A stretch of 32,329 nucleotides of DNA from Lachnospiraceae bacterium NK4A179 (GTDB lineage: Bacteria; Bacillota; Clostridia; Lachnospirales; Lachnospiraceae). A program made the position numbers and the translations under genes. Under the pieces are notes generated by a model that was given only the letters and a program-made list of their open reading frames with translations, ran no database searches and was not told the DNA's origin. Shown piece after piece: positions 10,577-32,329 of the stretch. The stretch's first letter is position 1, and every line of letters starts with the position of its first letter. Location of the stretch: the NCBI GenBank assembly GCA_000421045.1, contig ATWC01000035.1, positions 1 through 32,329 on the forward strand, written 5' to 3'.

Positions 10577-11896
10577 ATGAGCGACAATATAATTAAGCCC
10601 GGTATACTTTCGGGATTTATGGAACTGCTTCCTGAAAAGCAGAAGATTTTTGACGAGATGCAGGGAACCTTAAGGGATGTGTTCTCATCCTACGGTTTTT
10701 TCGGCCTTGATACTCCGGTTCTGGAGAGAAGCGCAGTCCTTCTTGCAAAAGGCGGCGGCGAGACCGAGAAGCAGGTATACAGATTTGACAGGGGTGATAC
10801 CGATATAACTATGCGTTATGATCTTACGGTGCCTCTTGCAAGATATGTCGCAATGCATTATTCAGAGCTTTCATTCCCCTTCAAGAGATATCAGATAGGA
10901 AAGGTTTACAGAGGCGAGCGCAGTCAGAAGGGCCGCTTCCGTGAGTTCTATCAGTGCGATATAGATATCATCGGCGACGGAAAGCTTGATGTGCTTAATG
11001 AAGCCGAGTGCCCTGCCGTTATGGCATCTGCTCTGAAGGCCCTTGGTCTTAAGGAGTTTAAGATAAGGCTCAATAACAGAAAAGTGCTCAACGGACTTTT
11101 TGAAATATACGGTGTATCGGATAAGAAGACAGAGATGCTCCGTACCATAGATAAATTCGAAAAGATAGGCCGCGATAATGTTATAGAAGAGCTTACCGGT
11201 TTTGGTGTGGAAGCTTCAAAGGCAGGCGAGATCCTTGATCTTGTCACCTGCGCCGGCAGCAATTCCGAAATAGAAGCAAAGCTTGCGGGTTTTGCAGGAA
11301 AGTCGGAAATATTTGATGAAGGCGTGGCAGATTTAAAGAAGGTTGCCGAAGCTCTCAGTGCTTCCGGCGTTTCGGAGGACAATTTCGGTTATGACTTAAG
11401 CATCGCGCGCGGTCTTGATTACTATACCGGCACAGTCTATGAGACTCAGTTCCTGCCTGATCCTTCTATAGGAAGCATATGCAGCGGCGGACGATATGAT
11501 GATCTTGCAGGTTACTTCATAGACAGGCCTCTTCCGGGCGTTGGTATGTCCATAGGTCTTACGAGACTCTTCTATATACTTGATGCGAAGGGCTTCTTTG
11601 ATGAGACCCCCGCACCTCCCGCTGATGTGCTGCTCCTTCCCATGACAGAGGATGTGAGCGTAGCTCTTAAGTCTGCGGCAGAGCTCAGAAATGCGGGCAT
11701 CAGCGTGCAGACATATATGGAACAGAAGAAATTCAAGAAAAAGATGGAATATGCAGATAAGCTGCACATTCCCTATACCGTGTTTATCGGTGAGGATGAA
11801 ATAAAAGAAGGAAAGATATCGGTCAAAAATATGACCTCAGGCGAACAGTCTATGATGACGATCGCCGAAGCTGCAGAGCTTATTCTAAATAAATAG
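10577..11896 (+). CDS. hisS: Histidyl-tRNA synthetase
   Basis: Charges tRNA-His in the cytoplasm as a class II dimer. The 439 residues contain motif 2 (VYRGERSQKGRFREFYQCDI, about 115-134), the HisRS-specific ARGLDYYTGTVYE (about 275-287), motif 3 (GVGMSIGLTRL, about 319-329), and a C-terminal anticodon domain from about 345. Length fits the bacterial enzyme. AAGGAGG precedes the ATG. The gene is on its own and is followed, two bases after its stop, by the 246-bp inverted repeat element, which may also end its transcript. Confidence 0.96.
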   Translation: MSDNIIKPGILSGFMELLPEKQKIFDEMQGTLRDVFSSYGFFGLDTPVLERSAVLLAKGGGETEKQVYRFDRGDTDITMRYDLTVPLARYVAMHYSELSFPFKRYQIGKVYRGERSQKGRFREFYQCDIDIIGDGKLDVLNEAECPAVMASALKALGLKEFKIRLNNRKVLNGLFEIYGVSDKKTEMLRTIDKFEKIGRDNVIEELTGFGVEASKAGEILDLVTCAGSNSEIEAKLAGFAGKSEIFDEGVADLKKVAEALSASGVSEDNFGYDLSIARGLDYYTGTVYETQFLPDPSIGSICSGGRYDDLAGYFIDRPLPGVGMSIGLTRLFYILDAKGFFDETPAPPADVLLLPMTEDVSVALKSAAELRNAGISVQTYMEQKKFKKKMEYADKLHIPYTVFIGEDEIKEGKISVKNMTSGEQSMMTIAEAAELILNK

Positions 11897-11897
11897 A

Positions 11898-12143
11898 TAA
11901 CTAAATTTACCCATACCGGCGGCCTTATCTGACGGTGTTAAAGTGAGCCTTAGCAGTTCTCGAAAATGCATAGATCCACCAGGAACGGACCGTCACGGAT
12001 GGCGGGACGAGTGAACAACGCCACATGGATGTGGCGTGTGAACGGTTCCGGAAAGACCCAGTAGTTTGGGGCATTTTCGTTAGAACTGCTTGGCGAACGG
12101 TTCCACCGTCAGATAAGGCCGCCGGTGTGGGTAGATTTAATTA
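11898..12143 (-). repeat. Structured repeat, copy A (minus orientation)
   Basis: A 246-bp foldback element filling most of the hisS-rpsF gap. Its arms, 11898-11937 and 12104-12143, are complementary over about 40 bases, with a few G-T wobbles in the outer part and perfect pairing from ACCGGCGGCC through TCTGACGGTG. Inside lie a second helix (AGCAGTTCT 11952-11960 with AGAACTGCT 12082-12090, continued by CGAAAATGC 11961-11969 with GCATTTTCG 12071-12079) and a hairpin CGCCACAT / ATGTGGCG (12019-12026, 12029-12036). The core recurs in reverse orientation at 20645-21324 and 32139-32329. It has no coding frame of note. It could be a structured RNA or a non-autonomous mobile element. Confidence 0.85.
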
Positions 12144-12156
12144 ATAAAACTTCTTC

Positions 12157-20619: not shown

Positions 20620-20713
20620 TTAAATCTTACAGTTACACTACGAACTTCCCACACCGGTAGCCAAGGCTTCCGGTGTACCGTTCGCCAAGCAGTTCTTACG
20701 AAAATGCCGGGGG

Positions 20714-20873
20714 CTAGTACATCGAATATTAATTTCCTAGCCATATCCTTGCCTGATGCTCTGGATGCTTCTTCGTCGTCAATCGCCGTAGCCCGCTACG
20801 GCTCACTCCTCCTCATCGCCTCCAAAACATCATGCAGCGGATTTGGCTAGTTATTAATTATTCGATGCACTAG
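20714..20873. repeat. 160-bp imperfect foldback inside copy B
   Basis: The segment is symmetrical about 20793: outer arms CTAGTACATCGAATATTAAT (20714-20733) and its near complement ending at 20873, then CTAGCCATATCC with GGATTTGGCTAG, an imperfect middle, and a perfect central hairpin GCCGTAGC-CC-GCTACGGC (20785-20802). It occupies the place of the short variable loop of copies A and C. It may be an inserted palindrome or an expanded variable hairpin; no target duplication is visible. Confidence 0.75.
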
Positions 20874-20918
20874 GGCTTACGTCCGGAACCGCTCACAGTT
20901 CGCATCGGCCCGCCGTCC

Positions 20919-21225
20919 CAATGTCATTTAGATAAGAAAATGCAGCAAATGCAAAATAGGCACGCTACGTTCTTCAGATTATATAGTAGCGTGAACATCT
21001 ACGTGACACCGCTTTATCTTTAGACTGTTATCACGTAATTTAGCAATGATTTTCTGGCATTCTACGTGATACACCTCCGTTAATAAGCCTCTCCTCACGT
21101 ATTTTTTCCAAATATCTGTTTAGTTTTACGTGCTCTACTACTAATAAAGAGCAGCATCTCACGTAGACGCTATAGATATCATGCTTGTTGCTCTGTCACA
21201 TCTTTTTCTTATCTAAATGACATTG
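20919..21225. mobile_element. MITE-like insertion with 22-bp inverted repeats and 9-bp target duplication
   Basis: The 307-bp element has perfect 22-bp terminal inverted repeats, beginning CAATGTCATTTAGATAAG at 20919 and ending with its complement at 21225. It is flanked by the 9-bp direct repeat CCGCCGTCC (20910-20918 and 21226-21234). Removing the element and one duplicate restores a sequence that aligns with copies A and C. It encodes no protein, so it must have been moved by a transposase elsewhere. The interior holds a regular array of short hairpins with CACGT stems. Confidence 0.88.
20961..21164. repeat. Array of four short hairpins in the MITE
   Basis: Hairpins: CACGCTAC / GTAGCGTG (20961-20993), ACGTGA / TCACGT (21001-21036), ACGTGA / TCACGT (21064-21100), ACGTG / CACGT (21128-21164, with inner stem GCTCT / AGAGC). 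In the last three the left arms are 63 and 64 bases apart and the right arms 64 and 64, so alternating motifs occur about every 32 bases. Confidence 0.7.
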
Positions 21226-21373
21226 CCGCCGTCCTGGCGGCCCGTTCCTGGGTGATATAAGCATTTTCGAGACCTGCTAAGGCTCACTAAATACCGGAAG
21301 CCTTGGCTGCACGGTGGGGGAAGTGTTAGAAAGATTATCTAAGAGTAAATTAATTTAAAGACATATTATGTAT

Positions 21374-21454: not shown

Positions 21455-21483
21455 ACTTGATATACGAATCGCTTCGCAATTCT

Positions 21484-21609
21484 GAAACATTCGGAATTCG
21501 CTAATTTGCCTGCTATGCAGGCAAATTGCTACTTCCTCATGTTTCGCGGGTCCCAAGGTCAAAATCCTCATTCAAGCAAGCTTGATTCGGATTTTGTACC
21601 TTTTGACCC
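21484..21609 (+). other. Highly structured leader or palindromic element
   Basis: Two large stem-loops lie back to back. The first is closed by GAAACAT (21484-21490) / ATGTTTC (21539-21545) and topped by AATTTGCCTGC / GCAGGCAAATT (21503-21513, 21517-21527). The second is closed by GGGTC (21548-21552) / GACCC (21605-21609), continues as AAGGT-CAAAATCC with GGATTTTG-ACCTT (one bulge) and is topped by CAAGC / GCTTG. An alternative small stem AATTCTGAA / TTCGGAATT competes with the first. It ends 12 bases before the next start codon. Whether it is a regulatory leader or a dispersed palindrome is open. Confidence 0.65.
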
Positions 21610-21621
21610 TAATATCATAAA

Positions 21622-21900
21622 ATGAACCCTATGAATGATCTGAGAACAGAACTTATAAAAGAAATAGAAAGACTGGGATTTCCCACAGCGCTCGGTGAAG
21701 CTGTTGCAAAAAATCTCGGCTCGGAAAAGACTATGTCGCGTATGCTCGGATATCTGAAGAACGTAAAGCCTGACAAAGAGGAACTGATCGTCGATGAGAT
21801 GCTTGCGATAATGGAAGACAGGAAGCGCTGGATAGACAAAAAAGAAGCCGAATATTCGAATGCGCGGTATAATGATATCCTGAATAATGGGATAGGATAA
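21622..21900 (+). CDS. Conserved small hypothetical protein
   Basis: A 92-residue acidic, helical protein without membrane segment. The pattern MLGYLKNVKPDKEELIVDEM followed by LAIMEDRKRWIDKKEAEY and YNDILNNG looks like a small family I recall in Lachnospiraceae; no function is known to me. The ribosome binding site is poor for both ATGs (21622 and 21631), and the structured leader lies just upstream, so translation may be controlled. The next gene starts nine bases after its stop. Confidence 0.7.
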   Translation: MNPMNDLRTELIKEIERLGFPTALGEAVAKNLGSEKTMSRMLGYLKNVKPDKEELIVDEMLAIMEDRKRWIDKKEAEYSNARYNDILNNGIG

Positions 21901-32080: not shown

Positions 32081-32138
32081 AAATTACTAATACTTCCCAC
32101 TTGTTACAAAACGTTAACTGCCTCACACCGTGCAGCAC

Positions 32139-32329
32139 TGTCTGACAGTGGAACCGTTCGCCAAGCAGTTCTTACGAAAATGCCCAAAGATATTGTTATA
32201 TTCCGGAACCGTTCACACGCCACATCCATGTGGCGTTGTTCACATCGGTCCGCCTTCCGTGGCGTCCCGTTCCTGATGAATCTCTGCATTTTCGAGAACT
32301 GCTAAGGCTCACTTTAACACTGTCAGACA
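32139..32329 (+). repeat. Structured repeat, copy C (plus orientation, cut by window edge)
   Basis: The visible outer helix is TGTCTGACAGTG (32139-32150) with CACTGTCAGACA (32318-32329). The right arm continues past the window, so the left arm may begin nearer 32110. The core is like copy A in reverse: AGCAGTTCT (32164-32172) with AGAACTGCT (32295-32303), CGAAAATGC with GCATTTTCG (32175-32183, 32286-32294), and the hairpin CGCCACAT / ATGTGGCG (32218-32225, 32228-32235). Most core bases are the same as in copy A, while the outer helix differs. Confidence 0.85.

Follow-up and report, generated by a model that had tools for sequence, protein, structure and literature searches.

Short, non-coding, palindromic, intergenic repeats such as ERIC, Correia, BOX and RUP are moved in bacterial genomes by a helper transposase. 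TwoAYGGAY is among the RNA motifs of Weinberg et al. 2010 (PMC2864571), and PMC4333381 carries the suggestion that it binds CsrA as an sRNA. The TwoAYGGAY literature examined, itself partial, mentions neither multi-copy mobility, target duplications nor IS4 ends, and among publications on MITEs, CsrA and IS4, covered as titles and abstract beginnings and mostly outside subscription journals, none reports TwoAYGGAY as transposon cargo. For the ISPepr1 subgroup, PMC2266710 gives ends of the form YT-AA-YTT---A, a size of 1500–1600 bp, 7–8-bp repeats and AT-rich targets.

We analyzed a 32,329-nt stretch of DNA (the window) from Lachnospiraceae bacterium NK4A179; this genome is denoted G000, compared genomes carry G-numbers and loci L-numbers. 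Three related copies of an inverted-repeat element, A, B and C, lie at roughly the positions proposed in an initial annotation (Table 1), on strands opposite to those it gave: the motif is on the plus strand in A and on the minus strand in B and C (by Rfam; B by eye). That annotation could assign the repeat to no named RNA class; copies A and C nevertheless match the full model of Rfam RF01731 (TwoAYGGAY, positions 1–168) above its gathering cut-off of 43 bits, and copy A contains both of the AYGGAY hairpin loops. The almost fixed core attributed to all three copies does not extend to copy B, in which it is split by inserts and hairpin 2 is missing, and which has no Rfam match up to an E-value of 10. 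The pairing of copy A's own arms makes the foldback longer than the core; aligned as inverted arms, copies A and C are 87% identical over 112 nt and 88% over 83 nt. Folded as RNA, the 246 nt of copy A reach -142.3 kcal/mol (z = -16.5 relative to 200 shuffles), and the values for DNA and for the other strand (z = -14.6 and -13.9) are nearly as striking.

Table 1. Features of the three TwoAYGGAY copies in the window (dot, no strand assigned).
Feature	Position	Strand	Remarks
Copy A, whole degraded element	11901..12139	+	ends CTAAATTTACCCA / TGGGTAGATTTA
TwoAYGGAY core, copy A	11938..12103	+	Rfam RF01731, 90.3 bits
Left outer arm, copy A	11898..11937	+	93% complementary to 12104-12143; beyond Rfam match
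Right outer arm, copy A	12104..12143	+	beyond Rfam match
Hairpin 1 loop ACGGAT, copy A	11995..12000	+	
Hairpin 2 loop ATGGAT inside CATGGATG, copy A	12025..12030	+	
Copy B, degraded and interrupted element	20638..21329	-	hairpin 2 missing (by eye)
Element nested in copy B hairpin 1, 307 bp	20919..21225	.	perfect 22-bp terminal inverted repeats CAATGTCATTTAGATAAGAAAA
9-bp target duplication CCGCCGTCC, left of nested 307-bp element	20910..20918	.	
9-bp target duplication CCGCCGTCC, right of nested 307-bp element	21226..21234	.	
Second inverted-repeat insert in copy B, ends CTAGTRCATCGAAT...	~20714..20873	.	
Copy C, cut by contig end 32329	32087..32329	-	long right end ...GTAACAAGTGGGAAGTATTAG
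TwoAYGGAY core, copy C	32151..32317	-	RF01731, 78.1 bits

Copy A is flanked by ORFs that we take, from their translations alone, to be hisS (stop codon at 11894-11896) and rpsF (12259); the neighbors of copy B are an ORF presumed on the same grounds to be pflB and an ORF at 21622. The sequences immediately bordering copy A (11893-11900 and 12140-12147) agree at six of eight positions by eye, possibly the remnant of a target duplication. No clean empty site for copy A was found among the relatives compared: downstream of hisS in seven relatives, and upstream of rpsF in 12, the two genes are not adjacent and the element is absent. The hisS/rpsF junction that holds copy A may be a rearrangement, possibly between copies. 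Adjoining copy B, on the minus strand at 21458-21617, is a 94.4-bit match to a different Rfam family, RF01699 (Clostridiales-1 sRNA). The element nested within copy B has perfect 22-bp ends, CAATGTCATTTAGATAAG..., and its ends and duplication length would, by eye, fit the IS4Sa subgroup in the table of PMC2266710.

RF01731 has 20 matches in G000, 19 of them above the cut-off, and a search with the arm sequences added one more partial copy (C6:118258) together with internally deleted or core-less relics. Within the genus, 26 of 35 genomes were found to contain the motif, at most 24 times in any one of them, and it was detected in none of 25 genomes sampled elsewhere (60 genomes in total; the filters used here were stricter and miss weak matches). 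Among GTDB contigs the hairpin-2 pattern matched 24 stretches, every one under a Lachnospiraceae title, and it gave no exact match in IMG/VR; copy A as a query had no match in plasmids or phages. The loci fetched for comparison, which are not a census, yielded 122 distinct cores, of which 107 were full and 15 partial ones were dropped; L044 and L045 aligned badly but remained in the search profile. Some arrangements are unusual. Two near-identical cores stand in direct tandem at L063 (G003:C13) and at L064 (G029:C118), and at L080 (G011:C60:2500-6650) copies are interspersed with serpin-like genes arranged in tandem (by eye). The possibility that inverted cores on this G011 contig enclose an ORF as a composite transposon was considered and rejected: the gene array looks to be of serpin type (by eye), and no transposase was seen there.

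The initial annotation had proposed an outer stem that changes in sequence while remaining paired, and this is borne out. Among the 17 G000 copies with both arms, the median pairing score is 25.1 for a copy's own arms and 17.6 for those of other copies, and in 15 of these copies the own-arm score is above the average obtained with the arms of the rest. Across all clades (100 copies) the corresponding scores are 21.7 and 6.8, against 6.6 after shuffling. Its further statement that the outermost helix differs from copy to copy stands insofar as the sequence varies, but the arms in G000 are all variants of ~AACTTCCTCACACCGTGTAGCCTTATCTGACGGTG (by eye); those of other clades of the genus are quite different from the G000 type.

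A tree of the 107 full cores groups them by genome, requiring 45 changes for 21 genomes where shuffled labels require 81.2 on average; the 19 rows of G000 require 2 changes, versus 17.9 shuffled, and the cores of G002, G007, G017 and G027 cluster no better than shuffled ones. In four species (G002, G008, G026 and G034), whose long DNA matches with one another are ~81–93% identical, cores that are 95–99% identical occupy almost without exception unrelated sites, the sole orthologous pair being G008 L086 and G034 L255. The flanks of these cores are 0.38–0.58 identical (the right ones including a few nucleotides of the element), compared with a 95% range of 0.38–0.52 for random 90-nt pairs. Furthermore, three orthologous sites differ between these species in the presence or absence of the element; the initial annotation had held that such differences, together with target duplications, would support a mobile element. 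Site S0, which separates convergent genes, holds the element in G034 and G002 and an apparent ordinary terminator in G026 (by eye). Site S1 is filled in G026 and G008 and empty in G034; in G002 it holds other sequence and an arm remnant. Site S2 contains a full element in G026 and a core-less one in G034, and is empty in G008 and G002. Near the arm remnant at S1, a different inverted-repeat element with AGTTCTGTGACTGCTATATG... arms can be recognized by eye (L217, G002:C1:94900-95750), which suggests that insertion has occurred more than once in the same place.

The intact form in the sister species is ~264 bp long with terminal repeats CTAAAACTTCCCACACC...; young copies begin with CTAAAACTTCCCACACC on the left and close on the right with a ~28-nt tail terminating in GTGGGAAGTTTTA. 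Target duplications of 7–8 bp were recognized by eye at L231 (ATATAATA) and at L297, the same copy as L238 (ATACTTTA), and in core-less forms at L298 (TCAGAGA) and L296 (TTAATAAT). Both ends are recognizable in 21 of 49 clade copies; among these, the mean duplication match is 0.654, versus 0.571 when permuted, and 6 of 2000 permutations were as high; most G000 copies in this test have no convincing duplication.

The initial annotation had matched the repeat to no IS end and had named a match to an IS end or to an Rfam family as a refutation; both were found, the young copies in relatives sharing their ends with an IS4-family element. When a single mismatch is tolerated, the 13-nt end motif has 25, 142, 33 and 84 occurrences in G034, G026, G008 and G002, respectively, versus 4, 2, 1 and 8 for the reversed-motif control. 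In G026 (C41:3-1586) the young-copy ends bound a 1.58-kb element with a 471-aa ORF, which encodes an IS4-family transposase (NF049925, 560 bits against a cut-off of 250, E = 3.4e-168; Pfam DDE_5 and DDE_Tnp_1); its left end lies at a contig end, so that its own target duplication is not visible. Matches to this transposase were found in 7 of 35 genomes: G026 itself, one of 100% in G008, cut by a contig end, one of 63% in G032, short pieces in G002 and G021, and weak ones (24–25%) in G004 and G028. None of these matches, in the 35 genomes searched, falls in G000 or G034, which for G000 is as expected of old orphan copies. The IS4 relative in G032 has similar ends, and the TwoAYGGAY copies inspected there are without them (by eye). 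G034 has young copies and a single 224-bp element with IS4 ends (L295, G034:C1:245754-245977), which by eye looks like an internal-deletion derivative that retains the end of a transposase. In G026, six loci (L288, L290, L291, L293, L299 and L302) represent a second family of palindromic elements, 134–365 bp long, with the same IS4 ends and with unrelated interiors of growing length.

The young element and the 1.58-kb IS share CTAAAACTTCCCACACC and fit the ISPepr1 end consensus given in PMC2266710, and all five ends present in the window (both of A, both of B and the right end of C) fail that consensus when it is applied strictly. As these ends fail the consensus and G000 has no transposase match, the membership of the window copies rests on their kinship with young copies elsewhere, from which we infer that they arose in the same way and then decayed. 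Mobility and the likely engine are well supported by the comparison in sister species. On these sequence data, TwoAYGGAY in this clade is very probably the cargo of a non-autonomous IS4/ISPepr1-type MITE, the window copies being old and degraded. The G026-type transposase, or a lost relative of it in G000, would have moved the elements in trans. Movement as a REP/REPIN-type repeat by a Y1 (RAYT) transposase is highly improbable: both the target duplications and the IS4 ends suggest an enzyme of the DDE type, and although inverted core pairs occur in G017, G032, G019 and G031 and G000 has two Y1_Tnp matches, none was found in G003, G006 and G002, where the element is present in 9, 6 and 5 copies. 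A link to Y1/RAYT transposases was not supported in the 34 genomes searched, 21 of them of the genus.

The core itself seems to be a passenger. It is dispensable for movement, because its ends and arms recur in four core-less forms of 97–133 bp, and clear duplications can be recognized by eye around two of these; the IS4 ends are also common to quite different palindromic interiors. In other clades the core resides in elements with other ends, for example ...GGATTCGGGTGTCAAAAGG in G018 and its kin and ...GGGGACGGTCCT in G031, which were linked to no transposase in this analysis, and in G017 and G032 two inverted cores form a composite, seen in both orientations.

The helices covary strongly, with many Watson-Crick pair types in the paired columns of the core, and the initial annotation had read a conserved core with a covarying outer stem as the signature of a structured RNA or of a foldback element. 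Its mobile-foldback half proved right; the step from covariation to RNA is weak here, because at well-aligned paired columns a change into G-T is no more common than one into A-C. With folds of both strands, 21 changes into G-T and 20 into A-C were counted in the 24 of 36 shared pairs that remained after columns less than 60% filled or with more than 6% odd pairs were dropped. RNase P from the same genus (27 of 30 fetched loci used) has 37 and 7, which differs from the core at p = 0.002, the copies not being independent. Wobble pairs are thus not clearly favored in the core, unlike in RNase P. Counted by cells, G-T/A-C is 42/68 in the core (78/69 with the plus-strand fold, 103/90 unfiltered), 59/9 in RNase P and 135/85 in the outer arms.

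Long palindromes correct themselves by template switching. Outer-stem covariation could then arise from self-correction of a DNA foldback with no selection on RNA, an account compatible with the MITE explanation, to which we give a substantial chance, somewhat short of even. The parity of G-T and A-C changes relative to RNase P favors it, as does the existence of core-less forms whose arms still pair; but the copies compared are not independent, the cell counts shift with the columns chosen, and the arms have an excess of G-T over A-C. Nor does palindrome correction explain why the loops, like the G-A mismatches next to hairpin 2, are strand-specific. A purely DNA-based reading must further contend with the GGA of hairpin 2, present in 106 of 107 cores (hairpin 1, 87 of 107), and with the stems, which vary least: within G000 the variation is 0.054 in stems and 0.044 in the hairpin-2 loop, three- to fourfold less than the 0.167 at unpaired positions.

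The same conservation of stems and GGA loops would be expected if the copies were genes for a host sRNA that titrates CsrA through these loops, a proposal compatible with mobility that we regard as possible, with a rather low likelihood. Of the 107 cores, 97 have a hairpin 2 that fits CANGGANG and 53 a hairpin 1 that does so, and csrA is present in G000. Moreover, when clades are grouped by hand according to parts of the tree, hairpin 2 has the full CANGGANG loop less often where csrA is lacking (8 of 14 cores in G019, G031 and G025) than in nearby csrA genomes (22 of 23 cores in G029, G001, G030, G006, G032 and G017), with no difference between G007 and its kin (3/3 and 12/12). Against this, the presence of csrA and that of the motif are unlinked in the 35 genomes (21 with both, 8 with csrA only, 5 with the motif only and 1 with neither; Fisher p = 1.0, the genomes being non-independent and some incomplete). 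Cores in the four genomes with no detected csrA (G007, G019, G025 and G031; completeness 88–100%) keep GGA in 17 of 17 hairpin-2 and 14 of 17 hairpin-1 loops, and a host sRNA leaves mobility and target duplications unexplained.

A cis-acting role, as a terminator, stabilizer or leader of neighboring genes in keeping with the Rfam type, appears improbable. According to a crude gene finder, the 47 loci considered lie between genes, with one of them touching an ORF, and often less than 150 nt from a gene, and at S0 the element stands where G026 has the apparent terminator. However, there is no strand bias relative to the neighbors: 16 loci are in tandem sense and 14 in antisense orientation (p = 0.86), 7 are divergent and 4 convergent, the other 6 having a neighbor missing and the orientations of L042-L045 being guessed from motifs. 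In addition, S1 and S2 look by eye like gaps between co-directional genes that are filled or empty depending on the species.

Returning to the MITE explanation, the fold probably serves the element or the host after insertion, since the stems and the hairpin-2 GGA loop are conserved though the core is dispensable for movement. In read-through transcripts it might, for example, bind CsrA or another protein that recognizes GGA loops; alternatively, it might act as a foldback in DNA. More tentatively, the core might be a captured protein-binding RNA hairpin module that transposons have spread on at least three kinds of ends in a single genus, seeding dozens of GGA (CsrA-type) hairpins across the genome. 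Such a module could, with equal reserve, be imagined as a mobile, distributed counterpart of CsrB, kept as insertions become tolerable or useful to the host. The lower frequency of the full loop in csrA-less genomes slightly raised our estimate for this captured-module possibility and, to the same degree, for the CsrA-titrating sRNA.

If the MITE explanation is correct, DNA transposons carry in this clade a motif that is catalogued as a 'cis-regulatory RNA' and for which an sRNA hypothesis has been published, and the annotation of RF01731 matches should change. For mobile palindromes, covariation alone is no proof of RNA, and comparing G-U with A-C in paired columns against an RNase P control offers a cheap check for other orphan RNA motifs. 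Were it true that the GGA loops bind CsrA, transposons would be spreading the binding sites of a global regulator.

In relation to known systems, the window elements agree with RF01731 in matching its full model (A and C) and in having two hairpin loops with GGA; they differ in that Rfam classes the family as Cis-reg and its match stops short of the transposon ends. With the ISPepr1 subgroup (PMC2266710), the young elements and the IS share ends, the young elements also 7–8-bp AT-rich target duplications and the IS also the size; the transposase family NF049925 (IS4) is common to the subgroup and the G026 IS, whereas the TwoAYGGAY element has no transposase and a structured interior. Like CsrB, CsrC and RsmZ (PMC4333381), TwoAYGGAY presents GGA in hairpin loops closed by C-G, but it does so in dispersed mobile copies with two sites each, whose presence is unlinked to csrA in the genus. 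The closest likeness in overall form is to bacterial MITEs such as ERIC, Correia, BOX and RUP, which are likewise short, non-coding, palindromic and intergenic; unlike them, the TwoAYGGAY element has an interior that is a named RNA family with loops resembling protein-binding sites, and it comes with several end types in a single genus.
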